Shown piece after piece: positions 4,708 to 62,318 of a DNA stretch of 64,000 bases (position 1 is its first letter; each line of letters begins with the position of its first letter). This DNA comes from Erysipelotrichaceae bacterium (lineage in GTDB: Bacteria; Bacillota_I; Bacilli_A; Erysipelotrichales; Coprobacillaceae): positions 1-64,000 of the forward strand of contig JAJQFG010000038.1 of assembly GCA_021201315.1 (NCBI GenBank), written 5' to 3'. Both the position numbers and the translations under genes were made by a program. The notes beneath the pieces are model-generated. The model ran no database searches. It worked only from the letters and a program-made list of their open reading frames with translations, and had not been told where the DNA came from.

Positions 4708-4758
4708 GTAGATAAATATTTATAAAATATTATATTATGTGTTTTAAAGGAGTTAATA

Positions 4759-18354: not shown

Positions 18355-18440
18355 TTGAGACTTTCGAGCGTATATATATAATAAGGGGTATTTTTATGTA
18401 CTCCTAACAGAAGTAGTCATTTATATGATTGCTTCTTTTT
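18355..18440 (+). promoter_or_regulatory. Promoter and terminator-like leader of protease cassette 1
   Basis: TTGAGA (18355-18360) and TATAAT (18377-18382) are 16 bases apart, and the spacer ends in a TA repeat. About 27 bases downstream a 12-bp hairpin (18409-18420 with 18425-18436) is followed by a T tract, so transcription may be attenuated before the protease gene. The same layout occurs in copy 2. Confidence 0.65.
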
Positions 18441-18464
18441 ATTTTATACGAAAGGAAGATGAAA

Positions 18465-23287: not shown

Positions 23288-23375
23288 TTGAGACTTTCAA
23301 GCGTATATATAATAGTAAGGGGTATTTTTATGTACTCCTAACAGAAGTAATCATTTATATGATTGCTTCTTTTTA
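23288..23375 (+). promoter_or_regulatory. Promoter and terminator-like leader of protease cassette 2
   Basis: TTGAGA (23288-23293) and TATAAT (23308-23313) are only 14 bases apart, two fewer than in copy 1, because the TA repeat is one unit shorter. A 12-bp hairpin (23343-23354 with 23359-23370) and T tract follow, as in copy 1. Confidence 0.62.
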
Positions 23376-23398
23376 TTTTATACGAGAGGAAGATGAAA

Positions 23399-24124
23399 AT
23401 GAGTTTATGGATTAAGCAGGAAAAAACGTATTATTATGTTAACTATGATGAAAGTGAAAAACTAAGAGAAAAGTATGTGTATTATAAGTCAAGATTATAT
23501 GATGATACAATTGCTTTCACATTTGTACCTCAACCTAAGAGAGTATTTAACTCTGATTATATGGTTGAGCAAATGATGTCACAGCTAAGTATTGATGACG
23601 AAGTGAAAGATATTGTGAAAAGAGATTTTAAAATAATCCCTTTAGATCATTTGCAGTTTTTGATTGATAATGATATCAAAATTGTTAAATCATTGGATGA
23701 AACATATTATGATGGTAATAATAAAATAATTGGAATTAATAAGCAAAAGCCTAAAGAAGGTATGGTAGCACATGAATTAGGGCATGCGTTTGTGGATATC
23801 AATAATCTTTATGAAAACTGTGAATTAAAAACAATTATGCAAGATATATTAGAAAACTCATTAAAGGTAAGTTCAAATTATATAAATAATGATATGTATA
23901 CTTATGTTGAGTCAGATAAATTTATAAGAAAGTATCAAGGTAGAACGTATATTTTGTATAAAGAATATTTGGATAAAAAAGTAAAATTAGAGTTTGATAT
24001 GCTTGAAGAATATGTTAGTGTGGGTTATGAAACGTTTGTAATTAACCCTAAGTTATTGTATACTAAAGACAAGGACCTGTATGATTTTTTTGAAAAAGGA
24101 GGCTTGAAAAATGAAAATGTATGA
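23399..24124 (+). CDS. HELGH zinc metalloprotease, lethal-factor-like (copy 2)
   Basis: This 241-residue paralogue of the protein at 18465 is nearly identical in the C-terminal half. The zinc motif VAHELGHAFVD and LEEYVSVGYETF are intact, so both copies should be active. The strongest difference is just before the zinc motif (SLDETYYDGNNKIIG against STNETFYSGKYKTIN), which may change substrate recognition. No signal peptide is visible. It overlaps peptide A2 by 14 bases, exactly as in copy 1, so the coupling has been conserved after duplication. Confidence 0.78.
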   Translation: MSLWIKQEKTYYYVNYDESEKLREKYVYYKSRLYDDTIAFTFVPQPKRVFNSDYMVEQMMSQLSIDDEVKDIVKRDFKIIPLDHLQFLIDNDIKIVKSLDETYYDGNNKIIGINKQKPKEGMVAHELGHAFVDINNLYENCELKTIMQDILENSLKVSSNYINNDMYTYVESDKFIRKYQGRTYILYKEYLDKKVKLEFDMLEEYVSVGYETFVINPKLLYTKDKDLYDFFEKGGLKNENV

Positions 24125-44927: not shown

Positions 44928-44953
44928 AAATAAGCAGGTTTCCCTGCTTATTT
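44928..44953 (-). terminator. Terminator of the metF-metH operon
   Basis: On the minus strand AAATAAGCAGG pairs with CCTGCTTATTT (11 bp, 4-base loop) directly at the metH stop codon. Flanking A/T makes it possibly bidirectional. Confidence 0.8.
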
Positions 44954-47329
44954 TATAATCTCATTTAATAAATGTACCGATGCCATAGCATCAACTGTAT
45001 AATAATCAGCTCCAATATCCTTGGCAATATCTTCCGTAAGGACAGCACCACCAACCCAAATAGGAACTTGGCAATTTGCTTCATGTAAGGCTTCAATTGT
45101 ACGTTTCATATTGACGACTGTTGTTGTCATTAATGCACTTAAGCCAATGGCTTTAGGTTGATATTTTTGATATGCTTTGACTACATCCTCAACCTTAACA
45201 TCTTTACCTAAATCTATCATTTCATAGCCATAGCTTTCTAAGACAACAGTGACAATATTTTTACCAATATCATGAATATCTCCTTCAACAGTACATATTA
45301 ATATTGGTCCTTTCTTTTCATTAGAATTATTAGTAAATGTTGATTGAACAACTTCAAAAGCTAATTTAGAACTTTCAGCTGATTGAATCAATTGTGGTAA
45401 GAATATCTTACCTGTTTCATAATCTTTTCCTACTTGATTTAAAGCTGGTACAATCACTTCATTAATTAACGTTAAACCATCTTTATCAGATAATTCTATT
45501 TGTGTTTGTTGCTTAATTTCATCCTTTAAACCTCTAATTATCATATAATAAAGATTCATTTCTTGATTTTCTTGTTTATTGGATTGTACTTGCTTTTGTA
45601 CCTTAGAAGAAACAACGTCATTGGCATGTCTTTCAATATATTGAATACTATCTTGATCCTGATATGTTAAAACATTATAAGCATCAATCACACCCATCAT
45701 TTGTTCATCTAAAGGATTCATAATCGGTAAATCCAAACCTGCATATAAAGCTGTTGTAAGGAATGTTCGATTAAGCAATGAACGATTAGGTAAACCAAAA
45801 GATACATTAGAAACCCCTAATACCGTATGATTACCCATTTCTCTAACCATCGTTAAAGCTTTAAGTGTTTCAATGACTTCTTTTTGTTGGGCAGATGCTG
45901 TTAAAGTTAAACAATCAATAATAATATCTTCTTTTCTAATACCATAAGACTGTGCTTTATTAATAATCTTTTTAGCAATATTTAATCTTTCTTCAGCTTT
46001 TAAAGGAATACCACTCTCCAATGTTAAACCAATCACCACACCACCATATTTTTTGGCGATTGGAAATATCGCATCCATCACTTCATCCTTACCATTAACA
46101 GAATTAATTAAAGGCTTACCATTATAATAACGACAAGCTGCTTCAATAGCTTTTGGATCAGAAGAATCAATCTGTAAAGGTAAATTAACCACTTCCTGTA
46201 ACATTGGTACAACCTTTTTCATCACTTTAGCTTCATTGATACCAGGTAAACCAACATTCACATCCAAAACATGAGCACCTGCTTGATCTTGCTTAATTGC
46301 TTCTCTAACCAGTTCATCATATCTTTCTTCCTTTAAAGCCAACTTCATCTTCTTTTTACCAGTTGGATTCAATCTTTCTCCACATATCACAACTTGACCA
46401 TTAAAAACAACTGTTTGATTTTGTGAAGAAACCATGGTTTTATAAGGATTATTTCTTGGCTTTACTTTTGTAGGTAAAGCTTGTTTCATTTTTTGGATAA
46501 ATTCAGGTGATGTACCGCAGCATCCTCCCACGATACTTGCTCCTAAATCAACTAAATGTTGCATAGAATCACAAAATTCATCAGGTGTTACTTCATAGTA
46601 GGTATTGCCATCTTTTAAAACAGGTAAACCTGCATTAGGTTGAACAATTACAGGTACATGAGCATATGACAATATATCTTCAACAATAGGTCTTAATTCA
46701 TCTGGCCCTAAGGAACAATTCACACCTAAAGCATCAACATTCAATCCTTCTACAACATTCACAAACGTTAACAGATCAACACCCATCAAAGTACGTCCAT
46801 CATCTTGAAATGTCATAGTCACAAATACAGGCAAATCTGTATTCTCTTTAACAGCCAATATACCAGCTTTCACCTCATATAAATCACTCATTGTTTCAAA
46901 TAAAACAACATCCACATCATCTTTCACAACCATAACTTGTGACTTAATAATCTCATAAGCTTCATCAAAACTTAATGTTCCCATTGGTTTAAGCATAGTT
47001 CCAATAGGACCAATATCTAAAACAATATAACTATCATCTTCTCTATGCGTTCTTATTTGAGCCTCTTTCGCATGCTTGACTGCATTTCTTATCATATCTT
47101 TAAAATCATACTTAGAATCCTTCATCTTCAATGGATTACATCCAAAAGTATTAATTGTAATAAAATCAGCACCAGCATTCAAATATCTCTCATGTATAGA
47201 AACCAACAATTCAGGATTATCAATATTCAATTCCTCAGGAATATCTCCAGCTTTCAAACCAGCATTTTGCAGTTGTGTTCCCATTGCACCATCAAAAAAC
47301 AACAAATCTTTCTTTAATCTATCCAACAT
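44948..47329 (-). CDS. metH: Cobalamin-dependent methionine synthase, short form
   Basis: This 793-residue enzyme transfers the methyl group of methyltetrahydrofolate to homocysteine through cobalamin. The homocysteine domain (about 1-290) has the zinc Cys residues in NCSLG and GGCCGTSPE. The pterin domain (about 315-570) has GERLNPTGKKKMK and DVNVGLPG. The cobalamin domains (about 590-793) have the lower-axial His motif DIHDIGKNIV. The C-terminal AdoMet-binding reactivation domain of full MetH (about 1200 residues) is missing; the next upstream gene encodes it separately. The B12 uptake operon 5 kb away would supply the cofactor. Confidence 0.95.
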   Translation of the reverse strand: MLDRLKKDLLFFDGAMGTQLQNAGLKAGDIPEELNIDNPELLVSIHERYLNAGADFITINTFGCNPLKMKDSKYDFKDMIRNAVKHAKEAQIRTHREDDSYIVLDIGPIGTMLKPMGTLSFDEAYEIIKSQVMVVKDDVDVVLFETMSDLYEVKAGILAVKENTDLPVFVTMTFQDDGRTLMGVDLLTFVNVVEGLNVDALGVNCSLGPDELRPIVEDILSYAHVPVIVQPNAGLPVLKDGNTYYEVTPDEFCDSMQHLVDLGASIVGGCCGTSPEFIQKMKQALPTKVKPRNNPYKTMVSSQNQTVVFNGQVVICGERLNPTGKKKMKLALKEERYDELVREAIKQDQAGAHVLDVNVGLPGINEAKVMKKVVPMLQEVVNLPLQIDSSDPKAIEAACRYYNGKPLINSVNGKDEVMDAIFPIAKKYGGVVIGLTLESGIPLKAEERLNIAKKIINKAQSYGIRKEDIIIDCLTLTASAQQKEVIETLKALTMVREMGNHTVLGVSNVSFGLPNRSLLNRTFLTTALYAGLDLPIMNPLDEQMMGVIDAYNVLTYQDQDSIQYIERHANDVVSSKVQKQVQSNKQENQEMNLYYMIIRGLKDEIKQQTQIELSDKDGLTLINEVIVPALNQVGKDYETGKIFLPQLIQSAESSKLAFEVVQSTFTNNSNEKKGPILICTVEGDIHDIGKNIVTVVLESYGYEMIDLGKDVKVEDVVKAYQKYQPKAIGLSALMTTTVVNMKRTIEALHEANCQVPIWVGGAVLTEDIAKDIGADYYTVDAMASVHLLNEIIK

Positions 47330-47943
47330 CTCTTATTATCCTTTCTTAGACTACATGTATCTTTACGTATGCAATGTCCACATTCTTTATGTATATGATC
47401 CTTACCAATACCAATAAAACAAAGCATTGTCTTTTGTGGTACAAACAAACCACTATCCGTTAAAGTAACACCTAAATACTTATACATATTCAAATACTTA
47501 TAAAACATCTTATTCAATGACACGGGAACATCTCCATATCCAGGCGCAAAACGAAAAGTCCTATCTTTTAAATCCAACGTCTTTTCATATTCATCTAATC
47601 TATATTCCAAATAGCTACTCGCAATAGCATCCATAATCACGGCTTTACTCATATCTATTTTAGAAATATATTTAATCCTTCTTTCCACATCTATTCCTAA
47701 AGTTGCACCAATAAGCATCACATGATGACAACCTTGTAAATAATACTGTGTATCTTGAAATTGAAGGCTCATATTGAGCTCTTCTATCATTAAATCATTC
47801 GTTAAATGACATATTTGATGCACTTGTTTAAAACGAGCATATTCTATAACTTCTTTTTCGCAAATATCATATAACTTATCAAAATCATCATCTAATTCTT
47901 GATCATGGTAACCTAAATATTTAAGGGCTTGTTGTTTAATCAT
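47314..47943 (-). CDS. Stand-alone MetH reactivation (AdoMet-binding) domain protein
   Basis: This 209-residue protein matches the methionine synthase activation domain: FRFAPGYGDVPVSLNK (the AdoMet-binding RxxxGY motif) and VPQKTMLCFIGIG. A Cys-rich end follows (CGHCIRKDTC). It would reductively methylate oxidised cobalamin on MetH. The gene lies between metF and the short metH and overlaps both by a few bases, so the three are made together. The C-terminal Cys cluster is an addition not typical of the fused domain. Confidence 0.85.
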   Translation of the reverse strand: MIKQQALKYLGYHDQELDDDFDKLYDICEKEVIEYARFKQVHQICHLTNDLMIEELNMSLQFQDTQYYLQGCHHVMLIGATLGIDVERRIKYISKIDMSKAVIMDAIASSYLEYRLDEYEKTLDLKDRTFRFAPGYGDVPVSLNKMFYKYLNMYKYLGVTLTDSGLFVPQKTMLCFIGIGKDHIHKECGHCIRKDTCSLRKDNKRCWID

Positions 47944-48826
47944 GATTCAAATTTTCTAAAACAGTTGGAATACTCGCAAAAATACTTTGAGCAATTTCAG
48001 GCTTATTCATCGTATAAATATGAATACCATCTACACCATTAGTAATCAAATCAATGATTTGACTAGTAGCATAATTTATACCAATTTCTCTGACAGCCTT
48101 AGGATAATGATAGTAGTTTTCAATCATTGTTGATAAATTATATGGAATAGAAGAACCACACATCTTACTAGATCTTAGTAATGACTTAGCATTAGTCACA
48201 GGCATAATACCTGCTAAAATAGGTACAGTAATACCCATTCTTCTTGCTTCTTTAACCAATCTATAATAATAATTATTATCATAGAATACTTGAGTTACCA
48301 AATACTCTGCCCCTGCATCAACTTTCTGCTTTAAAGCCTTCAAATCATCTTCAAAACATGTAGCTTCATAATGCACTTCAGGATAACAAGCACCTGATAA
48401 ACAAAAATCATTAGGAAATTCTTTAATAATAAACTCATCCAACTCTTTTGCATAATGAAATACCATCTCATCCTTATTAAAGCTAGGATCATTTGGAAAA
48501 TCTCCTCTTAATCCCAAAATATTCTCAACATTATTATCCTTCAATTGTTGACATATATCTCTAATACTATCCTCTGTAGCATTAATACATGTCAAATGAG
48601 CTACAGATTCAATATGATATTGATTTTTAATTGTTGATGCAATCTCAATTGTTTTATCTCTATTACTTCCACCTGCTCCATAAGTCACACTAATAAAATC
48701 AGGATTCAATTTTGATAATTCCTCAATCGTATGATATATAGAAGAAATATCACCATCCTTGTTTTTAGGTGGGAATATTTCAAAAGAAATCGTTGCTTTA
48801 GTTTTTAGTATATCTGATATTTTCAT
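47936..48826 (-). CDS. metF: Methylenetetrahydrofolate reductase
   Basis: This 296-residue FAD enzyme makes the methyltetrahydrofolate used by MetH. Family motifs include ISFEIFPPKN near the N-terminus, SVTYGAGGS, HLTCIN, NILGLRGDFP, YLVTQVFYDN and GIMPVTN. It is the first gene of the three-gene methionine operon on the minus strand. The ribosome site (GGAGGTT on the minus strand) lies seven bases before the ATG. No S-box or T-box riboswitch is apparent in the short leader. Confidence 0.95.
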   Translation of the reverse strand: MKISDILKTKATISFEIFPPKNKDGDISSIYHTIEELSKLNPDFISVTYGAGGSNRDKTIEIASTIKNQYHIESVAHLTCINATEDSIRDICQQLKDNNVENILGLRGDFPNDPSFNKDEMVFHYAKELDEFIIKEFPNDFCLSGACYPEVHYEATCFEDDLKALKQKVDAGAEYLVTQVFYDNNYYYRLVKEARRMGITVPILAGIMPVTNAKSLLRSSKMCGSSIPYNLSTMIENYYHYPKAVREIGINYATSQIIDLITNGVDGIHIYTMNKPEIAQSIFASIPTVLENLNHD

Positions 48827-50415: not shown

Positions 50416-50432
50416 AATGGGGAGTGATACAT

Positions 50433-52092
50433 ATGAATGAAATGACAAAAGCAGTCAAAATCAACAGAGCAATTGAAACTAAAAGACCTGTTGTGAACTT
50501 TATGGGTGGTATTTCTTATGAAATCAATCCATTAGATACATTAAAAATGGTAACTGCTTCTTCCATATTTGGAGAACCACAATATTATCGAGATGGCGAG
50601 TTTAAATCAGCTACAATCTATGATGGTATATATCGTACCAATAAATTCTTTGAAGCATACTCTATCATAGATAATAACTATGAAGGTAAGAAAACTTCAG
50701 AAATCATGGAAGATATCATTGGTAAAGCTTTGGATTATGATTTTGAAGCAACCATCAAATGGGCTGAAACACTACGTCATGACTATTTTATGAGACTCAA
50801 TCCTCAAATTATTATGGTAAGAGCTGCCATGCATCCTTATCGTGCTACTTTCAATCAAACACATCCAGGTATGTTTTCTTCAATCAATCAAAAAGTTATG
50901 TTACGTGGTGATGAACCAGCATCACAATTAACTTATTACTTATACCGTCATGGTTCTAAAAATAATGTACCTAATATTCTAAAAAGAAACTGGGCACAAA
51001 AAATAGAATCATTAGATAAATATGCTATGCATAAATATAAAAATACAGGTATAGGTATGATTGATGTGGTACGTATATCACATGCTCATGGAGAACACAT
51101 TGATGAATTGATGAAAACTGGTAATATAGAAGTTGAAGATAAAGATAATACTTGGGAAACTTTAAGAGCACAAGGAAAATCATGGAGCGAAATCCTTGAT
51201 ACGATTAAGTTAGGGCATATGGCACTTCTTAGAAATCTAAGAGGAATATTTACTGAAATAGATGATAATGCTCAATGTAAAGAAATCATGGATCAATTAA
51301 AGAAAGGTGTCTTGAAGGGAAAACAATATCCATTTCGTTACTATGCTGCTATGAAAGTCATTGATAAGTCTAATGTTCATTGTAAAATAATGATATTGGA
51401 TGCTTTAGAAGAATGTATGGACATAGCATGTAGTAATATGCCTAAATTAAAAGGTAAAACTATGTGTTTGTCTGATAATTCAGGTTCAGCATGGGGAACA
51501 TGTAATAGCGAATATGGTAGTATTAGAATAGCGGAAATTGATAATTTGTCATCTGTTATTACAGCTCATAATTGTGAAGAAGGCTATGTTGGTAAATTTG
51601 GTGATAAACTTAAAATATTTCCAATTACGCATAGAAATTACGCATAGAAATGGTATTCTATCACAAGCTAATCAGATTACATTTGAAAGCAACCATGATG
51701 TCGGTGGAGCTACGGAAAATGGGATTTGGATATTCTTTAAGAATGCCATTGAAAATAAAGAACATTGGGATAATATCTTTATTTATTCTGATCAACAAGC
51801 AGGTCATGGTGATTTATTTGGAACAGATGAAGGCATTGAAGAATATAAGGAAAAAGGTTATTTAGCTTATGAATATTATGTAGATGTCGCAAAGTTGATT
51901 GATACATATCGTAATACTGTTAATCCAAAAGTTAATGTCTTTTCAGTCCAAACTGCTGGTTATTATAACGTACTTATTCCAGAATATGGTTATCGTAGTA
52001 ATATTCTTTATGGATGGACAGGTAAGGAATTATCTTTTGCGGATACGATGATCCAGTTTTGGGATTATAAGGATCAAGAAAAAAATTCTTGA
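50433..52092 (+). pseudogene. rsr: TROVE-domain (Ro60/Rsr) protein broken by a 13-bp duplication
   Basis: The frame from 50433 carries a TROVE ring domain of HEAT-like helices (about 12-340, with LGHMALLRNLRGIFTEID). It then has the start of a vWA domain with the metal-site motif LSDNSGSAWG. It stops at 51645-51647 because 13 bases (51625-51637) are repeated at 51638-51650. Removing one copy joins PITHRN to GILSQANQ and the rest of the vWA domain (YSDQQAGHGD, FWDYKDQEKNS), giving about 548 residues. Ro60 proteins bind Y RNAs and misfolded RNAs. The disruption removes the C-terminal third; the TROVE ring alone might still be made. The ribosome site is GGGGAG at 50419-50424. Confidence 0.88.
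51625..51650 (+). repeat. 13-bp tandem duplication causing the rsr frameshift
   Basis: The unit TTACGCATAGAAA is present twice in a row. One unit fits the reading frame of TROVE proteins; the extra one shifts the frame by +1 and creates an early stop. Confidence 0.95.
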
Positions 52093-52100
52093 TCTTTTTT
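52072..52100 (+). terminator. Terminator after the TROVE gene
   Basis: GATCAAGAA (52072-52080) pairs with TTCTTGATC (52086-52094) and six T follow. The stop codon of the vWA frame lies in the right arm. Confidence 0.88.
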
Positions 52101-52399
52101 AAAACTTTTTGATGGTTTAAAACGTCTATATAGTGAAGAAGCAAAATGTTTTTTTCTCCCAGTTTATATGGCAATGCAAACTGTTAAAACAGAGACCTCA
52201 TCAAATTCTAAAGTCTGTGAATGAAAAAAAAGAGGAAAGCCAATGTATTATTTTGTCCTAACATATATGGACATCAATCTTCTCTCTTTCTTGAAAGGTG
52301 CTATTTAAAGCACCTTTCATTTCTTTTTATACAAATGATTGTCATAACATGAAAAGTTCGTTATAATAATAAAAAATTAATAAGAAATCGCATATTTAG
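52101..52399. other. Non-coding stretch between rsr and the cobalamin riboswitch
   Basis: I find no gene. A pairing at about 52227-52282 (AAGAGGAAAG with the TTCTCTCTTTC region, inner hairpin GTCC/GGAC) is possible. A perfect 10-bp hairpin at 52293-52318 has only a weak T tract. These could be the remains of a further small RNA next to the Ro60 homologue, but nothing proves it. Confidence 0.4.
52293..52328. terminator. Hairpin with weak T tract
   Basis: GAAAGGTGCT (52293-52302) pairs perfectly with AGCACCTTTC (52309-52318), followed by ATTTCTTTTT. It may end a transcript from either side. Confidence 0.55.
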
Positions 52400-52540
52400 T
52401 GGTTGTGACAAACATTAATAAGGAATTAGGTGAAAAACCTGGACAGTCCCGCTGCCGTGATGAGGAATGAAAGCAAATACCATTGGGAAACTGAGAAGGT
52501 GCTGGAGTGATGATTCAAAGTCGGAATACTTGCCATTATC
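52400..52540 (+). promoter_or_regulatory. Cobalamin riboswitch
   Basis: The segment holds the conserved B12 riboswitch core in order: AGGTGAAAAACCTGG, ACAGTCCCGCTGCCGTGA, a CCATTGGGAAACTGAGAAGG-like block, and AAAGTCGGAATACTTGCC. It lies about 90 bases before the lipoprotein start. In this class coenzyme B12 binding normally shuts off uptake genes by termination or ribosome-site masking. It controls the operon 52633-58645. Confidence 0.95.
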
Positions 52541-52632
52541 TTAGGATAAATTCTACGTGGATATAGAATAGTTCTATTTTGTGTATACATATCTATCCTT
52601 TTATGCGCTCTTTTTTAAGGAGGGCTTTTTTA

Positions 52633-53391
52633 ATGATGAAAAAAATTTTAATATGCTTATGTCTCATATTATCTTTATGTGCTTGTACATCTAGCTCTGT
52701 TGAAACAGATACAACGGATGAAAGTGAAGTTGTAGAAACGATAGAAGATACACAAACAGAAGAAGAAATAATAGAAACTGACGAAGAAACGACAGAAGAA
52801 AAAGAAGAATCGTCTGAAACCAATGAAACTTCTGATGATAGTGATTCTAGTAATTCCAATGAATCTGACACAAATACTACTAACCAATCATCAAGTTCTA
52901 CATCTTCAACTCAATCAACAAATAATAGCACAACAACTAAAAAATCAACTACCTCATCAAGTTCTAATACTAATAACTCAAATAATAGCTCAACAACTCA
53001 ATCATCAAGTAATACTGAAGAAAGTCAAACAACTGAAGAAACAAAGATCTATTGTACCTATACCATTGAATGTAGTTCTATCTTAAATCATACCGATGCT
53101 TTAGAATCCAATTATCAAGTACCATCCAATGGTATCGTCTATAGTAAAACGATAGAAATAGAAGAGGGAGATACCGTTATGTCTATTTTAAAAAGAACGG
53201 GCGTATCTACAGATATATCATTAGGTTATGTTAAGGGGATTGATGGTTTATATGAATTTGATTGTGGTAGTGAAAGTGGATGGACATATAGCGTTAATGG
53301 CGTTAAACCTAATGTTGGGGCATCAAAGTATAGTGTGAGTAAAGGTGATGTTATTAAATGGATTTATGTTGTTTCAAGGAGTGAATGGTGA
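52633..53391 (+). CDS. Surface lipoprotein with DUF4430 (transcobalamin-like) domain
   Basis: This 252-residue exported lipoprotein has a signal peptide with lipobox LCAC (Cys about 19), a long acidic then Ser/Thr/Asn/Gln-rich linker (about 20-148), and a DUF4430 domain (about 150-252; YTIECSSILNHTDAL, GDTVMSILKRTGV, GWTYSVNGVKPNVGAS, KWIYV). DUF4430 resembles the C-terminal domain of intrinsic factor/transcobalamin. The cobalamin riboswitch upstream supports a role in catching B12 or its analogues at the surface. The ATG at 52633 follows TAAGGAGGG; 52636 is equally possible. It overlaps the EcfT gene. Confidence 0.85.
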   Translation: MMKKILICLCLILSLCACTSSSVETDTTDESEVVETIEDTQTEEEIIETDEETTEEKEESSETNETSDDSDSSNSNESDTNTTNQSSSSTSSTQSTNNSTTTKKSTTSSSSNTNNSNNSSTTQSSSNTEESQTTEETKIYCTYTIECSSILNHTDALESNYQVPSNGIVYSKTIEIEEGDTVMSILKRTGVSTDISLGYVKGIDGLYEFDCGSESGWTYSVNGVKPNVGASKYSVSKGDVIKWIYVVSRSEW

Positions 53392-54188
53392 AAAGTTTTC
53401 AAAGATCACATCCTTTATCATTATTTATATACTTTATCATTAATCTTATATTAGTTATGATTCAAAGCCATCCTGTTATTGTTGTAGTACAATTTATATC
53501 CATATTATTACTTACTAAAGATTTTAAAAAATATGATTTGATTATATTATTACTTATTACTATTTCTAATCCTTTATTCGTTCATAGAGGAAATACAATA
53601 TTATTGTCATTTATAACATTAGAAGCTTTAATCTATGGCTTTATCTTTGGTTTAAAAGTCATTAATATGCTTATACTATTCAGATTAATGAATCAAGTCT
53701 TGCATAGTGAACACTATATCTATTTATTCTCTAATCACTTTCCTACTCTAGGTTTACTCATATCTATGATATTCTCATTAATACCTAGATTTATAGAACA
53801 CTATCAAATAATCAATACATGTCAAAAACAATTCTATGAAGGTCATACTATTCAAAGAATACTCAATACATTTTCTATAGAAGTTACATGGGCATTTGAA
53901 ACATCCTTAGATATGTTGAATTCTATGAAAGCTAGATTCTATGGAAAACATCAACGTACTTATTTTCATTTATTTATATTTAGAAACAAAGATATGATAC
54001 ATATCATTGAAATGATATGTATAGGAATTATATGTTTTATTAGTTATATGATAAGATGGAATCGTTTCTATTATTATCCAACAATGATATTAGAAACATT
54101 CAATATGATAGATTATTTATATATATTATTATATATATTGATATTATTATTACCAATGCTATGGGAGGTGAAAGAACGATTAAAATAA
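53385..54188 (+). CDS. ECF transporter transmembrane component (EcfT)
   Basis: This 267-residue membrane protein has five or six helices and the EcfT-type coupling region in the cytoplasmic loop (about 152-190; SIEVTWAFETSLDMLNSMKARFYG, whose SMKARFYG resembles the Ala-Arg-Gly coupling motif). It links the substrate-binding S component to the ATPases. It overlaps the lipoprotein gene. ATG at 53385 is very close to AAGGAG, so GTG at 53388 may be used instead. It is controlled by the cobalamin riboswitch. Confidence 0.85.
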   Translation: MVKSFQRSHPLSLFIYFIINLILVMIQSHPVIVVVQFISILLLTKDFKKYDLIILLLITISNPLFVHRGNTILLSFITLEALIYGFIFGLKVINMLILFRLMNQVLHSEHYIYLFSNHFPTLGLLISMIFSLIPRFIEHYQIINTCQKQFYEGHTIQRILNTFSIEVTWAFETSLDMLNSMKARFYGKHQRTYFHLFIFRNKDMIHIIEMICIGIICFISYMIRWNRFYYYPTMILETFNMIDYLYILLYILILLLPMLWEVKERLK

Positions 54189-55642
54189 AACACTTATCTT
54201 TTAACTATCCTCATAGTTCACTTATACTCAATGATATCAATATAGATATATATGATCATGAAATAACCGTTATTATAGGTAAAACAGGTAGTGGAAAAAC
54301 AACACTACTTAAACACTTAAAACAAGAACTGAAACCCATAGGGAACCAAACAGGTATGATTGATTTTCAAGGAATTGATAGTGAAGAAATAGGTTATGTT
54401 TTTCAAAATCCACATACACAAATTGTAGAGGATTATGTTTATCATGAGATTGCTTTTGGATTAGAAAATCTAGGTATTGAAAGAAGGATCATGAAGAATA
54501 AGATTGCTGAAATTGTCCAATATTTTCATTTAGAAGATATCTATGATAAACGTACAAGTCAATTATCAGGTGGTGAAAAACAATTAGTTAATTTAGCATC
54601 TGTTATGGTAATGCAACCAAAGATGTTATTATTGGATGAACCATTAGCACAATTAGATCCTCATTCTCAGGAACAATTCATAGCTATATTAAAGAAATTA
54701 CATCATGACTTTGGATTAACTATTATAATGATTACACATCAATTAGATGAAATCTATGATGATATTGATAAACTCATTGTATTAGATAAAGGACAAGTAT
54801 TAAACCAGGGAAGACCTAATGATATCGCACAAGTTCTTAAAAATAACGAACTACTATCATTCTTTCCGCCTTATATTCAATTGCTATCTAAGAAACAATT
54901 ACCACTCAATACATCATTTTATCAAAGTAAAACATTCATCAATCCCTTAAAAATAAAACCAAGAACCTATAAAAATCATCAACCCTGTATTCATATCTCT
55001 CATTTATATGCATCCTATGATCATGACATTCTCTTTGATATATCAACCCATATACCAAATCAAGAAATATTATGCATATTAGGAAGCAATGGTAGTGGTA
55101 AAACAACACTACTAAGATGCTTACTTAATGATATGAAATACCAAGGAAAAATAAATATCAATGGTAAAATAGGTTATTTACCTCAAGAACCATTACTACT
55201 CATCAATAAAGATAGTGTTAAAGAAGAAATCAACAATGATAAACTCATTCAATACTTTGAATTTGAATCCCTATTAGATAAACACCCTTATGACTTAAGT
55301 GGTGGTCAACAACAGCTTCTGGGAATCATGAAACTTTTAATCAATAATAATGATATATTATTACTAGATGAACCAACCAAGGGATTAGATCCTATCATGA
55401 AAGACAAACTAGGAACCTATCTACAAGAACTTCTCATACAAGGTAAAACAATTATCATAGTATCCCATGATATAGAATTCTGTGGCACTTATGCAACTAT
55501 GTTATCGATGTTATTTCATCATCAGTTATCTGATATATTAAGACCCTATGATTTCTTTAGTCAACATTATTTTTATACTACCCAATTAGCGAAACTGACT
55601 AAAGATGCTAACTTAGCTATATCATTAAAGGATGTGATGTGA
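54161..55642 (+). CDS. ECF transporter ATPase, two ATPase domains in one chain
   Basis: The protein (493 residues from ATG 54161) fuses two ATPases. Domain 1 (about 8-235) has GKTGSGKTT, LSGGEKQLV and LLLDEPLAQLD. Domain 2 (about 275-480) has GSNGSGKTT, LSGGQQQLL and LLLDEPTKGLD. In most Firmicutes EcfA and EcfA' are separate, so this dedicated fused form fits a group II ECF system for one vitamin. The start is uncertain. GGGAGG lies after the ATG at 54161, and the family start (MIKI-like) would fall at the ACG of 54176, five or six bases after that site. It overlaps the EcfT gene. Confidence 0.88.
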   Translation: MGGERTIKIKHLSFNYPHSSLILNDINIDIYDHEITVIIGKTGSGKTTLLKHLKQELKPIGNQTGMIDFQGIDSEEIGYVFQNPHTQIVEDYVYHEIAFGLENLGIERRIMKNKIAEIVQYFHLEDIYDKRTSQLSGGEKQLVNLASVMVMQPKMLLLDEPLAQLDPHSQEQFIAILKKLHHDFGLTIIMITHQLDEIYDDIDKLIVLDKGQVLNQGRPNDIAQVLKNNELLSFFPPYIQLLSKKQLPLNTSFYQSKTFINPLKIKPRTYKNHQPCIHISHLYASYDHDILFDISTHIPNQEILCILGSNGSGKTTLLRCLLNDMKYQGKININGKIGYLPQEPLLLINKDSVKEEINNDKLIQYFEFESLLDKHPYDLSGGQQQLLGIMKLLINNNDILLLDEPTKGLDPIMKDKLGTYLQELLIQGKTIIIVSHDIEFCGTYATMLSMLFHHQLSDILRPYDFFSQHYFYTTQLAKLTKDANLAISLKDVM

Positions 55643-56298
55643 TGGGTTATATAAGTATAATTATAATGATTTTCTTATCATTACTTACATATGTATTTTA
55701 TTATTATCATCAATTGAATTTATTAATTATTTTATTAATTATACTATCAACATTACCATTTTATTTTAGATATGAACAACGAAAACCTAGAGCTAGAGAA
55801 ATCGTTGTATTAGCCATTTATATAGCTTTATGTGTTAGTTCAAGAGTCTTATTTATGTTGACACCAAGTTTTAAACCAATGGCTGCTTTGATTATTATTG
55901 CAGGGTTGGTTTTTGGTAAGGAGTTTGGATTTTTATGTGGTTCTTTAAGTGCCGTTGTTTCAAATATCTTTTTTGGACAAGGACCTTGGACACCTTATCA
56001 AATGGTAAGCTTAGCTTTGATTGGCTTTATATCAGGTTGTTTTGGTAACTATAAACAAAGTAAGTTGTTTTTAGTTGTGATAGGATTGTTTTCAGGTGTT
56101 TTTTATTCGTTAGTGATGGATATATGGGGTGTATTATCAGTTGATCAAATATTTTTGTTGAGTCGATATATTGCGATGATTATATCATCATTACCTACAA
56201 CATTAATTTATTGTGTATCAAATATATTATTTTTAATAATATTGACACCTACAATGATAAGAAAATTAGAAAGGGTAAAAATAAAATATGAATTTTAG
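55642..56298 (+). CDS. ECF transporter S component, probable cobalamin-binding
   Basis: This 218-residue membrane protein has two extra N-terminal helices and then a six-helix S-component core (from about 54, AREIVVLAIYIALCVSSR, then FGKEFGFLCGSLSAVVSNIFFGQGPWTPYQM). S components of this type bind the vitamin and confer specificity. Position within the riboswitch operon points to cobalamin or a precursor. The ATG overlaps the previous stop by one base (TGATG). Substrate identity is inferred from context. Confidence 0.85.
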   Translation: MGYISIIIMIFLSLLTYVFYYYHQLNLLIILLIILSTLPFYFRYEQRKPRAREIVVLAIYIALCVSSRVLFMLTPSFKPMAALIIIAGLVFGKEFGFLCGSLSAVVSNIFFGQGPWTPYQMVSLALIGFISGCFGNYKQSKLFLVVIGLFSGVFYSLVMDIWGVLSVDQIFLLSRYIAMIISSLPTTLIYCVSNILFLIILTPTMIRKLERVKIKYEF

Positions 56299-56308
56299 GG
56301 AGGAAAGT

Positions 56309-58645
56309 ATGAAGAAATTAAAGAAGTTACTCACATTTTTTGTGACATTATCAATGATGTTTTCGTTGTTTAGTGTTAGTGTATTTGCGGATAATGATAC
56401 GATTAGCGTATCATTAAGAGTTGAAAGTTATGATAAGACATTGTATTACGATGATTCGTTAGAAGTTGATAAAGGTTTAACTGCTGTAGAAGTGTTAGAT
56501 CTATCAGGTGTTGAAAATATAAATTATTCATATGAATTCGATGGTGAAACATATTCTTCGGTCTCATCAATTATGGGAGTAGAAGATTATTGGTGTTCAG
56601 CAATTAATAATTCATATGATTATGTTGATAATGAAAATAATAAAGTAAAGGCCAATGGAGATGAAGTTGTATTTTATTTGTATGACTATTCAACAGGCAA
56701 TTATAGTTATTACGGAGATTCTAATTATAGTGTGAAAACAAATGAGAATCTAGAAGTGACATTATATGAAGATAGTTATTATTTAGGTCAAATTGGCTCA
56801 TCATATTCTCAAATTTACTATAAGACAAGTCCAACTGGTGAAGAAACACCATTACAATCTATTACTGATGAAAATGGTAAGACAACTATTTCATTTAATG
56901 AAGCAGGGACTTATTACTTAACTGCAAAATCTTTAACTGGAAAAGGAAACTCTAGAGCTTTTGCGACTGTTACAGTGACTGGTGATACTATTGATACTAC
57001 TGCTTTAGATTCTTCTATTACATCAATCGAAGTCGTAGAAGAAACAAGCGATAATATTGCATTACCTACATATACAACGGATTATAATTGTTCTATTAGT
57101 TGGAGTAGTAGTAATGAGTGTGTTATAAGTAATGATGGAGTTGTTAATGGTAGCATCAGTGAAGAAACTTATGTGTTATTAACAGCGACTTTTTATCAAT
57201 ATAGTGATGGTTCTACAAAGACAGTTCAATATTTAGTTAAAGTATTACCTGATACAAGTGATTACGATGCAGGTAGTCTATCTACAAGTAATGGATCATG
57301 GTTAAATAGTGGTTACAATCAAGCTGTTACATCCACAACAACACCAATTTCAAGTGATGATACAAGGTTAAAATATTTAAGTTCAGGAAACTATAAATCT
57401 TCACCTATTATTGTTGGGGACTATATTTATGTTGTTAATGGGGCTAATCAGTTAGTAAAACTCAATCAATCTGATGGTTCGGTTGTATCAAAAGCAAATT
57501 TATCAGGATCATTATATTATAGTGCAGATATTATTTATGGTGATGGTATGATCTTTGTGCCATTGTCTAATGGAACGATTCAAGCATTCAATGCTGATAA
57601 TTTAGCATCGCTATGGATAAGTGAAAGTGCTGGTAATGCAGTGACTTCAAAATTGACTTACTATAATGGTTATCTTTATGCAGGTACAATCAATGGTACA
57701 TTTTTTGCGATAAACGTAAAAGATGAAGATACATCAACTGGTAAAGAAACAAAAGCTTTAACTTGGACATATGCTTCTACAGAGTATTATAGTAATCAAG
57801 CTGTTATTATAAATAATCAATTATATTTTATTGGTGATGATGGTGTATTGGTTTGTCATTCTTTAACAGAAGACAAAGTCATTGCTACTTTAACATTAGA
57901 TACAAGCGTAAGAAGTGGTATTACTTATGATGATAATTATATGTATATAATGAGTATGAGTTCAACATTATATAAGATATCAATTGCTGATTTTGAAATT
58001 GTTGATCAAATTCAAATCTACGAAGATGGTTATAGTACATCTACACCAACTTTATATAATGGTCGCATTTATGTTGGAGGATTAAAAGATAATAGTGATT
58101 TTTATGGTACAGGTTTTATGGCAGTTATTGATGCTAGTAGTATGGATGTAGTAGCTATTTCAGATACAGTGGCAAATGTTCAATCACAACCATTAGTTAC
58201 AAGTGCATATGCTAATGACGATAATTTAAACAGTGTTGTTGCGTATTTTACATGTAATACCTATCCTGGAGGTGTTTATTACATTGAAGATTATCAAGGT
58301 AATACAAGCATAAGTGTTAACACATTATATACACCAGAAAGTGCTTATCAACAATACAATATGAATAATGTTGTTGTAGATGATGAAGGTGTATTATACT
58401 TTGTGAATGATTCAGGTACATTATTTGCTTTAGAAAATACGAATAGTAACGCTTCTATAACTGTAGAAGTAGCAAATGAAACAGCAGTTACAGAAACAAC
58501 AAAAAAACCAGATACAATAGAAAATGCAAAGATTAAAGTAGCAGAAACTGGTGACGATACGGATATTACAATATATATTGTTGTAGGAGGTATTGCAGTA
58601 ATTGCTATAATTGTATTGCTTGTGATGAAGAAGAAAAATCGTTAG
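56309..58645 (+). CDS. Wall-anchored DUF4430 / PQQ-like beta-propeller surface protein
   Basis: This 778-residue exported protein has a signal peptide (about 1-29), a DUF4430 transcobalamin-like domain (about 32-130) and an Ig-like region (about 230-315, CSISWSSSNECVISNDG). A PQQ-type beta-propeller follows (about 360-700; repeats such as SSPIIVGDYIYVVNG, GDGMIFVPLSNG, YNGYLYAGTINGT). The end has VAETGDD, a hydrophobic helix and KKKNR, which resembles a non-standard sortase signal (ETG instead of LPxTG). As last gene of the cobalamin operon it may bind corrinoids at the cell surface. Sortase use is an inference; it may simply be membrane-anchored. Confidence 0.82.
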   Translation: MKKLKKLLTFFVTLSMMFSLFSVSVFADNDTISVSLRVESYDKTLYYDDSLEVDKGLTAVEVLDLSGVENINYSYEFDGETYSSVSSIMGVEDYWCSAINNSYDYVDNENNKVKANGDEVVFYLYDYSTGNYSYYGDSNYSVKTNENLEVTLYEDSYYLGQIGSSYSQIYYKTSPTGEETPLQSITDENGKTTISFNEAGTYYLTAKSLTGKGNSRAFATVTVTGDTIDTTALDSSITSIEVVEETSDNIALPTYTTDYNCSISWSSSNECVISNDGVVNGSISEETYVLLTATFYQYSDGSTKTVQYLVKVLPDTSDYDAGSLSTSNGSWLNSGYNQAVTSTTTPISSDDTRLKYLSSGNYKSSPIIVGDYIYVVNGANQLVKLNQSDGSVVSKANLSGSLYYSADIIYGDGMIFVPLSNGTIQAFNADNLASLWISESAGNAVTSKLTYYNGYLYAGTINGTFFAINVKDEDTSTGKETKALTWTYASTEYYSNQAVIINNQLYFIGDDGVLVCHSLTEDKVIATLTLDTSVRSGITYDDNYMYIMSMSSTLYKISIADFEIVDQIQIYEDGYSTSTPTLYNGRIYVGGLKDNSDFYGTGFMAVIDASSMDVVAISDTVANVQSQPLVTSAYANDDNLNSVVAYFTCNTYPGGVYYIEDYQGNTSISVNTLYTPESAYQQYNMNNVVVDDEGVLYFVNDSGTLFALENTNSNASITVEVANETAVTETTKKPDTIENAKIKVAETGDDTDITIYIVVGGIAVIAIIVLLVMKKKNR

Positions 58646-58664
58646 TTAAGCTAACGATTTTTTA
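58636..58664 (+). terminator. Terminator of the B12 uptake operon
   Basis: AAATCGTTAG (58636-58645) pairs with CTAACGATTT (58651-58660), then TTT. The left arm includes the stop codon. Confidence 0.88.
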
Positions 58665-58831
58665 AATATTAAGGAAATTTTAAGGATTTATTGGTTATTT
58701 TAGACTATAGTATAGTTGTATTATTCTACATTTTATTTCTATTATAGAACTTTTGTTCATATAAAGTTCTTGATATTATCTTTATATAAAATATGGTAGA
58801 ATAAAAGATATAAATGTAAGTAGGTGAAAGC

Positions 58832-60358
58832 ATGGATATAAAACAAATCAAATACAACAAAATGCATTGTACTAAATGCGGTGAAGATACTAGTGCAGAT
58901 TTGGTAGGCTTTAATTTTAGTCATATAATTACGCAAGCTTTGATGCTTCAAGAAGATGATATTAGTATACATTTAAGAAACTTAGATTTGAAATTCTATT
59001 ATACATTAAGAGATATTTGTCAACAATTACATTTTGACATGCAAAAAGATCAATTTGTACCATTAAATGTAACAGTCAAAGATGTTATATTACAACTAGA
59101 ATATCTTATGAAACCAATTACCTTTGATGAAATCAAAAATAGTCATCGTAATACATTACTTTATAATACTATATATGAAAAAATCAAGCTTCCTCATGGT
59201 ACTTCTGAAGATAAAATGGAACATATTGAAATGCTTATTCGTGCTTTAAGTTTAAGTGAACCTGATACGATTATTGTAAGCATTCCATTACAATTCATAT
59301 TTGATAAAGATGATTTATCAAACGTTATTCCAATAGGTATACGTTATCATATAAGTGATCAAACATATGAAGTATATGAACGTGTTTGTCCTAATTGCGG
59401 TGAAGTATTTGATCGTCAATCAGGTTATCATCATGAATTTGTGATAGGATTGGCAGGTTTATCAAGAGTAGGTAAAACGGCTTATTTAGCTTCATTGATT
59501 TATCAATTGTTGAATTATAGTGGGTTTATTTCAATCGTTAAAAATAAAAGAAATCAAGAAAATTTAACACAATTCTATCATGATATTTTAAAAGATTATG
59601 AAAAAGGTCAACCAATCATTAAAACAGAAGTAGAAAATACTTCACATATACCTTTATTATATATTGAGCTACAAGTAAACAATAATGTATATAATTTTGT
59701 TTTTGTAGATATGCCTGGTGAAATATATCATGAAGATAGTGATGAAAGTATTGATTTTGTGGTAGAAAAGAGAAAAATACTTAGAAGTGCAGATATGATT
59801 TGGTGTTGCATTGAACCTTCAATGATCAATCCAAAATATCATAATTATAAAGAAGAAGCTTATCAGGAAAGTGGTTTTGATCAATTATCACATCTTATAA
59901 AAACATTAGATCGCTTATATATTGAAAAAATACCAGCATGTGTGATCTTAACACAATGTGATTTGCTTAAAGAGGATTATCCTTCATTATTTAATCCTTC
60001 TATAAATGTTATGAAAGAATACATTAATGAAGATCATTCGTTGGATATGAGTAAAGCTGATGCCTATATTAAACAAACTCGTCAATTTTTAAAACAAATG
60101 TCTAGTTTAGAACCTAGTATTGAAGATATTTTTGAAGGTTTTAGTATGTTTGGGGTAGCATCTTATGGTTTTGATGTTTATAGTAATATACTTGGTGATA
60201 GATCTTTACATCCATCCATGGTTGAATTACCTTTTTTATGGACTTTAGCAAGATTTGGATGTTTGGATGCAAGTAAGACTGTTATTTCTAAAAATATGTT
60301 TGGTAGAATTAAAGAAGAGAGTGAGAAAATCACTGATAGAAGGGATTTATATATATAA
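58832..60358 (+). CDS. Zn-ribbon GTPase-like protein of a paired-GTPase system (first GTPase)
   Basis: This 508-residue protein begins with a CxxC pair (MHCTKCGE) and has a second CxxC (VCPNCGEVF, about 185-189), so the two may form a split zinc ribbon. Next comes a P-loop GTPase domain: GLAGLSRVGKTAYLA (G1, about 206-220), DMPGE (G3, about 293) and TQCD in place of NKxD (G4, about 372). I recall this layout from the double-GTPase (DO-GTPase) families predicted in NTP-dependent bacterial conflict systems. The paralogous GTPase and a GAP1-like protein downstream support that. No effector domain is visible in this protein. Confidence 0.75.
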   Translation: MDIKQIKYNKMHCTKCGEDTSADLVGFNFSHIITQALMLQEDDISIHLRNLDLKFYYTLRDICQQLHFDMQKDQFVPLNVTVKDVILQLEYLMKPITFDEIKNSHRNTLLYNTIYEKIKLPHGTSEDKMEHIEMLIRALSLSEPDTIIVSIPLQFIFDKDDLSNVIPIGIRYHISDQTYEVYERVCPNCGEVFDRQSGYHHEFVIGLAGLSRVGKTAYLASLIYQLLNYSGFISIVKNKRNQENLTQFYHDILKDYEKGQPIIKTEVENTSHIPLLYIELQVNNNVYNFVFVDMPGEIYHEDSDESIDFVVEKRKILRSADMIWCCIEPSMINPKYHNYKEEAYQESGFDQLSHLIKTLDRLYIEKIPACVILTQCDLLKEDYPSLFNPSINVMKEYINEDHSLDMSKADAYIKQTRQFLKQMSSLEPSIEDIFEGFSMFGVASYGFDVYSNILGDRSLHPSMVELPFLWTLARFGCLDASKTVISKNMFGRIKEESEKITDRRDLYI

Positions 60359-60600
60359 TGGAATCATTAAAAGATAAAATAAAACATACACAAATAGAAT
60401 ATGAGCATTCAGATATTTATTATCAAATTATTGGTATTATTGTTGTATTATGTATTGTTTTAATTGCATTTTTATTAGTTAATATAGATTATACAAGTAT
60501 ACCTGTTATAGGACCGTTTATTTCATTTAGTGTGGATGTAATATTAAAAATAGTTAATTTATTGTCTAATATTATTAGAAAGATTTTAGAATTATTTTAG
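60358..60600 (+). CDS. Small membrane protein inside the GTPase operon
   Basis: This 80-residue protein has a charged N-terminal helix, one strong membrane helix (about 24-44, IIGIIVVLCIVLIAFLLV), and a second amphipathic or membrane segment at the end (about 50-78). Its ATG overlaps the previous stop by one base (TAATG), so it is coupled to the first GTPase. It may anchor the GTPase complex at the membrane or be a small membrane-acting effector; the sequence does not decide. Confidence 0.65.
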   Translation: MESLKDKIKHTQIEYEHSDIYYQIIGIIVVLCIVLIAFLLVNIDYTSIPVIGPFISFSVDVILKIVNLLSNIIRKILELF

Positions 60601-60611
60601 GAGGGAAGAAC

Positions 60612-62318
60612 ATGGCATTTCATAAAGTACATTGTCCTCGATGTGGCCGCGTCATGGATGCAAGTGAATTAGCTTTTGATTTTGGTAGTTTGTTAAATAT
60701 GGCATTAGAAAAGATGAGTCGTAGACACTTTGGTGCAAGCATTGAATGGTATGATTTAACAGGTTTGAATTTATGTTTGTATTTAACACTTCAGGATTTG
60801 ATTGATGAATATGACTTTCAAGTAGCATCACAAAATACATATCAAGGTAGATTTATTTTTACCAGTGAAAAACTCCAACAACAACTACTTAAGCTAGCGA
60901 ATAATCCCCAAACAAATATTGATATTTTAGCGGGTAATATAGGTATTGAATATGAAAATTTAACGAAGTTTATGGCTACTTCTAGAGAAGTAGATATAGA
61001 TGAATTAGCTGAAAAAATACAAGAAATTGCTAATCGTGTTAAAACTAATATGAACACAATCATTGCTTATTTTGATGTAACTGTAATTATGGATAAAGAT
61101 GATATGGGTAATAGCTTTGCGAATAAATTAGAAGTGACTTTTGATGATGGATCAAAGAAAACCATTTCTAAGTTTATTTGTAAAGGTAAAGATGGTAGAC
61201 CTTGTGGTAAAGAACTCTATGGCCACGCTGGTAAATTTAAAGAAATTGTGATTGGTCTTGCAGGAACAGCTAGAGTGGGTAAAACAGCTTATTTGGCATC
61301 ACTGCTTGCTAGTATTATGAGAGAAGGCAATGGTTATGAATCTTTAGGCTATGATCAAGATGTTATTACAACTTTAGCTTATGCAGGTGAGGGATGGAGT
61401 AACTTTAAACAAACATTATTAACACCTTATGTAACTGGTAAAAAAATAGAAAAAACACCAGTAATAAGAGAAACATCTGAAAATAAAGAAGCCATTCCAA
61501 TGTTCTCTTTAACATTTAGAATCAATAGTTCTCATCGAAATTTTATCTTTACTTTTGTAGACATGCCTGGTGAAATCTATGATGGTGGCGATGCGGATTT
61601 TGTGGCAGAACAAAGAGAAATTATTCGTTCGGCTAATATGATATGGTTATGTATATCACCAGCCCAAATTGATCCAATGCATGCAGCTGCTACAGCCGAT
61701 CCAGTCAATACCAATATCATGGAAGTATTAGCTAACATTGAAACAACCATGCAAGCCATCAAAATGGAAAGAAAAATACCAGCTGTTGTCTTAATCACAA
61801 GAAGTGATGAAGCATTAGAAAGTTATGACTTATTCCATAGTCAATTCAATCCATTTGCTTCTGCTACTAATCCAATGCATTATTTAAGTGAAAAAAATGA
61901 AAAAACACCATGGGTTAATGAAAAAGGAGCTTTATTCTATAATAATATGAAATGGTTCATCCAAAAAAGCTACAACTACCTTAATTCCTCTAAAGGTATA
62001 GTAGCACAAATAGGCAATATTTTTAGTAGCTTTACACCTTTTGCAGTTGCTTCATATGGTTATGATTTAGACAATCCATTGATTAATAGAAACAATGAAA
62101 GTGGTTTACCTATTCCTTCTATGATAGAAGGACCATTTCTATGGACACTCGCTTATTTAGGTATTATTCCTTCTTATATAGAAAAAATGATTACCAAAGA
62201 ACGTGATAAATTCTTTGGCTTCAAAAAAGAAACCTACCAAGAACTTGCGAACGTTAAAATAGATGGTTATACCAGAAATGAATTATTCTATTATCCTATA
62301 CGTAAGGAGGAAGTATGA
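60612..62318 (+). CDS. Zn-ribbon GTPase-like protein of a paired-GTPase system (second GTPase)
   Basis: This 568-residue paralogue of the first GTPase starts with VHCPRCGRVMD, and a further Cys pair lies near 194-202. The GTPase domain has GLAGTARVGKTAYLA (about 214-228), FVDMPGEIYDGG (G3, about 314) and LITRSDE as G4 (about 393-399). Between N-terminus and GTPase is a helical region of about 180 residues. Two different GTPases encoded side by side with a shared partner are the mark of these systems. The ribosome site is AGGAGGG. It overlaps the GAP1-like gene by 4 bases. Confidence 0.75.
   Translation: MAFHKVHCPRCGRVMDASELAFDFGSLLNMALEKMSRRHFGASIEWYDLTGLNLCLYLTLQDLIDEYDFQVASQNTYQGRFIFTSEKLQQQLLKLANNPQTNIDILAGNIGIEYENLTKFMATSREVDIDELAEKIQEIANRVKTNMNTIIAYFDVTVIMDKDDMGNSFANKLEVTFDDGSKKTISKFICKGKDGRPCGKELYGHAGKFKEIVIGLAGTARVGKTAYLASLLASIMREGNGYESLGYDQDVITTLAYAGEGWSNFKQTLLTPYVTGKKIEKTPVIRETSENKEAIPMFSLTFRINSSHRNFIFTFVDMPGEIYDGGDADFVAEQREIIRSANMIWLCISPAQIDPMHAAATADPVNTNIMEVLANIETTMQAIKMERKIPAVVLITRSDEALESYDLFHSQFNPFASATNPMHYLSEKNEKTPWVNEKGALFYNNMKWFIQKSYNYLNSSKGIVAQIGNIFSSFTPFAVASYGYDLDNPLINRNNESGLPIPSMIEGPFLWTLAYLGIIPSYIEKMITKERDKFFGFKKETYQELANVKIDGYTRNELFYYPIRKEEV

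Follow-up and report, generated by a model that had tools for sequence, protein, structure and literature searches.

A five-gene operon at positions 52339–58662 of the window (the whole 64,000-nucleotide stretch of DNA that was analysed) is one unit in a gut bacterium of the Erysipelotrichaceae, and most probably encodes a dedicated corrinoid importer together with a two-part surface capture system, cobalamin-repressed through a riboswitch (probability roughly 0.8). The order is cobalamin riboswitch, DUF4430 lipoprotein, EcfT, fused EcfA, S component and surface beta-propeller protein, and the genes abut or overlap; this composition, as given in a preliminary description, is confirmed by Rfam, Pfam and NCBIfam matches and by motifs. 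The new element is the alternation, at one operon slot across related species, of a propeller and an alpha/alpha toroid, the fold that accompanies the beta domain in transcobalamin. The overall scheme, propeller fusions included, was already predicted in 2007 by Burroughs, Balaji, Iyer and Aravind. Their paper describes low-GC Gram-positive SLBB (DUF4430-type) proteins fused to alpha/alpha toroids, a beta-propeller and wall anchors, notes that the operons also encode CbiO/CbiQ and another SLBB protein, and predicts B12 scavenging (PMC1796856). The preliminary view that such capture is little described therefore stands for experiments but not for prediction; a literature search on DUF4430 and cobalamin found both terms together in just two papers, and neither deals with this system.

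The operon is bounded by a preceding terminator (52292–52319) and by a symmetrical terminator hairpin at its end (58634–58662), identified by a terminator scan and from the sequence. All other features of the operon described here are on the + strand. A putative promoter (TTGTCA—17 bp—TATAAT; 52339–52367) lies just 5′ of the riboswitch, matches 11 of 12 consensus positions and is, by consensus match only, the top-scoring + strand site within 52000–58900. The riboswitch aptamer (52383–52551) aligns full-length with RF00174 (model positions 1–189; cmscan 82.7 bits, above the Rfam gathering cut-off of 31.5; E 7e-19), so that the clear cobalamin riboswitch described earlier upstream of the lipoprotein gene is indeed present. 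No other Rfam match occurs in the window, and the 2.99 Mb genome contains no second cobalamin riboswitch; at some relatives' copies of the operon no riboswitch is detectable. A plausible expression platform is the predicted hairpin GCTCTTTTTTAAGGAGGGC followed by T6 (52607–52625), found by a scan for terminator-like sequences and with a weak RNA folding z-score of -1.6; it includes the Shine-Dalgarno sequence of the first gene, and could block translation or stop transcription.

The first gene (52633–53391) encodes a lipoprotein with a signal peptide and lipobox (LCA|C), an S/T/E/N-rich tether of ~119 residues and a C-terminal transcobalamin-beta-like domain. Its real start is at 52633, with the Shine-Dalgarno sequence AAGGAGGGC. 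The C-terminal domain (53050–53388) matches DUF4430 (PF14478; SLBB) with E 8e-18 and 65.1 bits against a cut-off of 23.8, and its AF2 model has a pLDDT of 82.5. For this domain, the structure prediction proposed as a check in the preliminary description gives a transcobalamin-type fold: in a Foldseek search of the whole PDB, ranks 1–18 are transcobalamin, intrinsic factor, haptocorrin and the bacterial DUF4430 protein RUMGNA_00854, the last being the second-best match. The model is a beta-grasp fold with a beta-hairpin after the helix (residues 54–57/60–64), which the 2007 paper gives as the defining trait of the transcobalamin-like SLBB clade (PMC1796856). On this model the domain is clearly transcobalamin-beta-like. 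The similarity is visible in fold comparison only, and a search of PDB sequences with the DUF4430 profile returns no meaningful match. RUMGNA_00854 of Ruminococcus gnavus (PDB 3U7Z) shares the bacterial DUF4430-type fold but was deposited as a putative metal-binding protein, with an entry title that names no ligand or operon role.

Three adjacent genes encode the ECF module and together supply the parts of an ECF transporter: EcfT, an S component and two ATPase domains that carry the Walker and signature motifs. EcfT (CbiQ-like; 53385–54188) has ~5 transmembrane helices by hydropathy and the motif KARFYG, aligned with ARGYG in relatives; taken singly, the window protein matches no Pfam family, and five of eight aligned homologues match CbiQ (PF02361; best E 9e-10). 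The fused EcfA-EcfA′ ATPase (~54161–55642) contains two ABC domains, each of the Walker A, LSGG and Walker B motifs occurring twice, and matches TIGR04520/TIGR04521 with E ~1e-86 at scores just under the curated cut-off. The S component (55639–56298) matches PF07155 (E 4e-12), with Pfam matches to riboflavin and general ECF families. Its closest characterised relative is CbrT, the best PDB match being 6fnp_A (E 6e-8 with the single protein and 7e-11 with a family profile; runner-up 2.5e-6). The ECF-CbrT transporter of Lactobacillus delbrueckii (6FNP), which carries cobalamin and cobinamide, has a full-length homologous S component, EcfT and two ATPase domains; the window operon differs in having a dedicated module, with both ATPases on a single chain, and in including two co-transcribed genes for surface capture proteins (PMC5997447).

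The last gene (56309–58645) encodes a protein with a signal peptide, a divergent DUF4430-like domain, an aBig_2 domain, an eight-bladed propeller and a putative VAETGDD-TM-KKK anchor. Its described length of 778 residues is correct, from an ATG with a good Shine-Dalgarno sequence; from the first ATG it would be 785. The N-terminal domain (56390–56680) aligns with DUF4430 in hhalign (probability 90.5, E 1.4e-6), the window protein has no Pfam match to PF14478, and the propeller proteins of sister species match that family under the cut-off (E 0.005–0.011). One sister species is without part of this domain, and AF2 gives no confident model of the N-terminal part. From its sequence the domain may be a divergent, partly decayed, sub-threshold DUF4430 relative, and of the two transcobalamin-like surface proteins proposed initially the lipoprotein stands whereas the propeller protein has just this divergent copy. 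The propeller (57320–58447) is of the BamB/PQQ type (PQQ_2 E 4e-14; AF2 pLDDT ~87). Foldseek places BamB on top and YxaL next, and the fold is a generic one also found in quinoprotein dehydrogenases. The C-terminus consists of VAETGDD, a 19-residue transmembrane segment and KKKNR; the ETG-type end noted initially scores above the cut-off of NCBIfam TIGR01167 (16.5 against 15.9) but below that of Pfam Gram_pos_anchor (PF00746; 13.6 against 20). Six matches to sortase are present in the genome. A search of plasmids with the propeller gives distant matches only, one of them in a DUF4430-annotated Collinsella protein. Bacteroides BtuG is likewise a surface beta-propeller from a B12 transport locus, but it is a seven-bladed lipoprotein that sits on BtuB and is restricted to Bacteroidetes, whereas the window propeller has eight blades and a putative C-terminal anchor (PMC6143338). 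Homology to BtuG is ruled out by the eight blades in the model, the BamB and YxaL best folds and the lack of any BtuG sequence match.

Genes for MetF, a separate MetH reactivation protein and MetH are transcribed leftwards elsewhere in the window (44948–48826, - strand; identified from the ORFs and a B12-binding domain of 87.2 bits), and MetH is the evident corrinoid user. The genome was surveyed for MetE, CobA, PduO and B12-binding domains. MetE is not detected in the genome, which makes the B12 requirement concrete. The corrinoid users found are limited to MetH and a radical SAM protein of the B12-binding kind; neither CobA nor a PduO-type adenosyltransferase is detected. Riboswitch-controlled B12 uptake, as described initially, is therefore well supported by the riboswitch, the CbrT-like S component, the transcobalamin-beta fold and the presence of MetH without detectable MetE.

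A survey of 23 CbrT-like loci, collected through the S component alone, shows that propeller and alpha/alpha toroid occupy the same operon slot in related species. A DUF4430 gene is present in 20 loci, a propeller in 11 and a toroid, recognised by weak sequence similarity (E ~4e-4 to 0.02), in seven; five have neither and none has both. A one-sided Fisher test of this exclusivity, calculated by hand over the 23 loci, gives ~0.003, a value that ignores kinship and is not relied on. In an EcfA+S tree, with deep nodes that lack resolution, the five Thomasclavelia loci that have a toroid group in a single clade (support 100), which also holds the second G003 locus, with neither domain, and three Thomasclavelia propeller loci (support 100) adjoin it, so at least one switch between toroid and propeller has taken place. 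A corrinoid adenosyltransferase gene adjoins several Thomasclavelia loci. Outside the family, the propeller is found near cobalamin riboswitches or near a CbrT-like ECF locus (L057 and L058), and L057 contains both toroid and propeller.

Because either fold is found at the same slot, the propeller may replace the toroid as the corrinoid-clamping partner of DUF4430. When corrinoid is scarce, the riboswitch would permit expression of the five genes. The lipid-anchored, long-tethered DUF4430 domain would bind corrinoid as the transcobalamin beta domain does, and the propeller protein, anchored C-terminally to the wall or membrane, would close on it or concentrate it, acting as the second half in place of the relatives' toroid. 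The corrinoid would then be handed to the CbrT-like S component and imported by EcfT/EcfA, chiefly for MetH. A split clamp is feasible, since the beta domain of human transcobalamin binds cobalamin on its own, and the alpha and beta domains, when separated, assemble only in the presence of cobalamin (PMC5599065). Counting against this reading are the generic nature of the propeller fold, the weakness of the sequence similarity by which toroids are recognised, the presence of both domains in L057, and the operons of relatives in which no riboswitch is detectable. The window DUF4430 domain has the beta-domain fold of human transcobalamin, intrinsic factor and haptocorrin, with the hairpin insert of the clade, but the operon encodes no alpha/alpha toroid and thus lacks the full transcobalamin architecture; the propeller protein stands in the relatives' toroid slot. 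The 2007 operons resemble this one in their secreted SLBB/DUF4430 proteins, Gram-positive anchors, second paralogous surface protein, Clostridium propeller fusion and CbiO/CbiQ, but the paper mentions no riboswitch or S component, both present here, and its passages on the toroid and propeller treat them as alternative fusions rather than swaps at one slot, whereas in the window the partner is on a separate protein (PMC1796856).

That two surface proteins share the clamp between them, with an eight-bladed propeller having replaced the toroid as second jaw around the corrinoid, is a tentative proposal, somewhat on the doubtful side. With the same importer, the propeller protein may be merely structural and make no corrinoid contact, binding wall polysaccharide or keeping the lipoprotein near the wall. 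This has nearly an even chance: the BamB/YxaL-like fold is generic, the protein's own DUF4430-like domain appears to be decaying, five of the surveyed loci have neither propeller nor toroid, and Burroughs et al. suggest cell-surface tethering for the extra domains (PMC1796856). It sits less easily with the exact placement of the propeller in the slot of the toroid, which in transcobalamin is a B12-binding fold, and with the propeller's tracking of B12 loci over several families.

CbrT and transcobalamin-beta both accept cobinamide (PMC5997447, PMC5599065), which would suit import of this precursor or of incomplete corrinoids for salvage rather than of finished cobalamin; this is unlikely given that the users found are only MetH and the radical SAM protein and that, in the survey of MetE, CobA, PduO and B12-binding domains, CobA and PduO are undetected. 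Cobalamin riboswitches also control cobalt transporters, and the riboflavin and general ECF matches of the S component could point to a different vitamin. Transport of cobalt ion, another vitamin or some other riboswitch-linked compound is very improbable, as the operon contains no CbiM/CbiN, CbrT is the nearest solved S component with a much weaker second-best match, and, at ranks 1–18 of the fold search, the surface domain matches nothing but B12-binding proteins and a single bacterial DUF4430 protein.

Extracellular collection of B12 by Gram-positive gut bacteria is almost unstudied, and their rivals for it are Bacteroides, with BtuG/BtuH, and host intrinsic factor. In the loci described here, riboswitch control and a CbrT-like ECF importer come together with bacterial proteins related to the B12 carriers of the host itself. 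The exchange of toroid and propeller makes it simple to ask whether one job is shared by two unrelated folds; if so, the propeller would represent a previously unseen mode of B12 binding that evolved by domain replacement at a fixed operon position.

A full-length cobalamin riboswitch (RF00174, 52383–52551; 82.7 bits against a cut-off of 31.5) heads the operon, as the preliminary description proposed, and a genome search shows it to be the sole one in the genome. Five genes lie downstream, each neighbouring pair overlapping or abutting, and terminators at 52292–52319 and 58634–58662 bound them as one operon together with a near-consensus promoter (52339–52367). A predicted hairpin followed by T6 (52607–52625), with a fold only modestly better than those of shuffled sequences, encloses gene 1's ribosome binding site; the ligand could thus act either by termination or by blocking translation. 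Upstream is a TROVE/Ro60-like gene (50424–52092, forward strand) broken by a 13 bp tandem duplication (TTACGCATAGAAA twice, ~51625–51650), the frame being shifted and the remainder of the gene lying in another. Downstream, two DO-GTPase2-type proteins flanking a small membrane protein (58832–62318, forward) adjoin the operon; the first gene does so in all three sister species and the second is seen in two.

Genes 2–4 encode EcfT, whose homologues match CbiQ; two EcfA ATPases fused to each other and carrying two full motif sets; and an S component, whose profile, when compared with every solved structure, matches CbrT of ECF-CbrT best (E 7e-11; next 2.5e-6). ECF-CbrT has proven cobalamin and cobinamide transport (PMC5997447). 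We put the probability that the operon's importer acts in corrinoid uptake at about 0.82. EcfA in sister species begins MGGERMIK, with an ATG well placed downstream of GGAGG; the window's EcfA start (54161–54181) may be moved or weak, because this second ATG is replaced by ACG there.

In the lipoprotein a lipobox is followed by ~119 residues of tether, in which Ser, Thr, Glu and Asn are abundant; the C-terminal part is a DUF4430 domain (65 bits; cut-off 23.8). An AlphaFold2 model of this domain (pLDDT 82.5) is a beta-grasp with a beta-hairpin after the helix, described as a mark of the transcobalamin-like clade (PMC1796856). Foldseek against the whole PDB ranks the transcobalamin apo beta domain first, and ranks 1–18 comprise transcobalamin, intrinsic factor, haptocorrin and the bacterial DUF4430-type RUMGNA_00854, followed by a more than twentyfold gap in E-value.

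The propeller protein has the 778 residues and ETG-type end originally described, starting from an ATG at 56309 with a good ribosome binding site. It contains a signal peptide, a divergent DUF4430-like domain, aBig_2 and a confidently modelled eight-bladed propeller, and it ends in VAETGDD-TM-KKK. The closest folds to the propeller are BamB and YxaL rather than BtuG. Its DUF4430-like domain is related to that of the lipoprotein by hhalign (90.5%, E 1.4e-6), but falls below the Pfam threshold in the window's protein and in both sister proteins scanned, and one sister species carries a deletion within it. Of the two transcobalamin-like surface proteins proposed earlier, the lipoprotein gains independent support from the model's hairpin and the Foldseek ranking; the propeller protein's N-terminal domain does not qualify as a further proven example.

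The named relatives comprise Thomasclavelia, Beduini and Erysipelotrichaceae MAGs that share the window's genus. A survey with the S component alone as query, across two overlapping genome sets (316 from the order, 392 from the phylum), yielded 23 loci, which were scored with profiles built for this analysis. A DUF4430 gene is present within the cluster in 20, a propeller protein in 11 (the window, G009, G072, G042, G048, G065, G074, one G003 locus, G055, G480 and G504) and an alpha/alpha-toroid protein instead in seven (G031, G034, G078, G071, G057, G207 and G481); five have neither, one of these at a contig end, and none of the 23 has both. The toroid family is tentatively assigned by weak similarity to squalene cyclases and prenyltransferases, and the sole Pfam hint for the G207 protein is PF01122, the family of the cobalamin-binding protein of eukaryotes, at a sub-threshold E of 0.022. 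A second CbrT-like ECF locus in G003 (L082, 6441–10892, reverse), near a CobA gene, has no DUF4430, toroid or propeller gene by these profiles.

Two further loci, L057 and L058, were found through the propeller itself in Lachnospiraceae and Oscillospiraceae. In L057, from a Lachnospiraceae MAG, a single protein (3654–5465, reverse) ahead of EcfT/EcfA/S joins a toroid, two TM helices and DUF4430, a predicted membrane-tethered transcobalamin architecture; a divergent propeller gene is adjacent, so the toroid/propeller exclusivity is not absolute. L058 carries a tandem pair of cobalamin riboswitches (4429–5239, forward), then genes for a FecR-DUF4430 protein and for a propeller protein of 1270 residues.

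Human transcobalamin holds cobalamin between its toroid (alpha) and beta domains (PMC5599065). Because these domains, when expressed apart, assemble only upon cobalamin addition (PMC5599065), operons encoding both a toroid protein and a lipoprotein with DUF4430 resemble a split transcobalamin that would supply an importer of the CbrT type. Within the window's family either type of protein is encoded directly 3′ of the S component and has a similar TGD-type anchor at its end, and in the window's lineage the propeller occupies the toroid slot; on the simplest reading it would do the toroid's job, or at least serve the same capture step. BtuG is an example of a propeller with very tight B12 binding (PMC6143338). 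Only slightly less likely than this reading is one in which the propeller does no more than attach the complex to the wall. Direct corrinoid contact by the propeller is possible at somewhat below even odds.

MetF, a separate MetH reactivation protein and MetH are encoded at 44948–48826, and no MetE is detectable in the genome. Neither a CobA nor a PduO-type adenosyltransferase was detected genome-wide, so the evident role of B12 is to provide MetH with methylcobalamin; the other B12-binding protein is a radical SAM enzyme. As the riboswitch is present without a detected adenosyltransferase of either type, it may respond to methyl- or hydroxocobalamin instead of adenosylcobalamin. Several Thomasclavelia loci have a CobA adenosyltransferase gene close to the operon. 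Elsewhere in the window, near-identical 253-residue ORFs with a HELGH-type metallopeptidase motif (18429–19190 and 23363–24124, both forward) enclose a two-component/ABC cluster.

Burroughs et al. (2007; PMC1796856) predicted this operon class, including toroid fusions, propeller fusions and anchors; the riboswitch, the CbrT-like S component, the model-based structural confirmation and the slot exchange are additions to that account. The literature searched yielded no experiment on a role of DUF4430 in B12 uptake, so the system makes a long-predicted mechanism directly testable.
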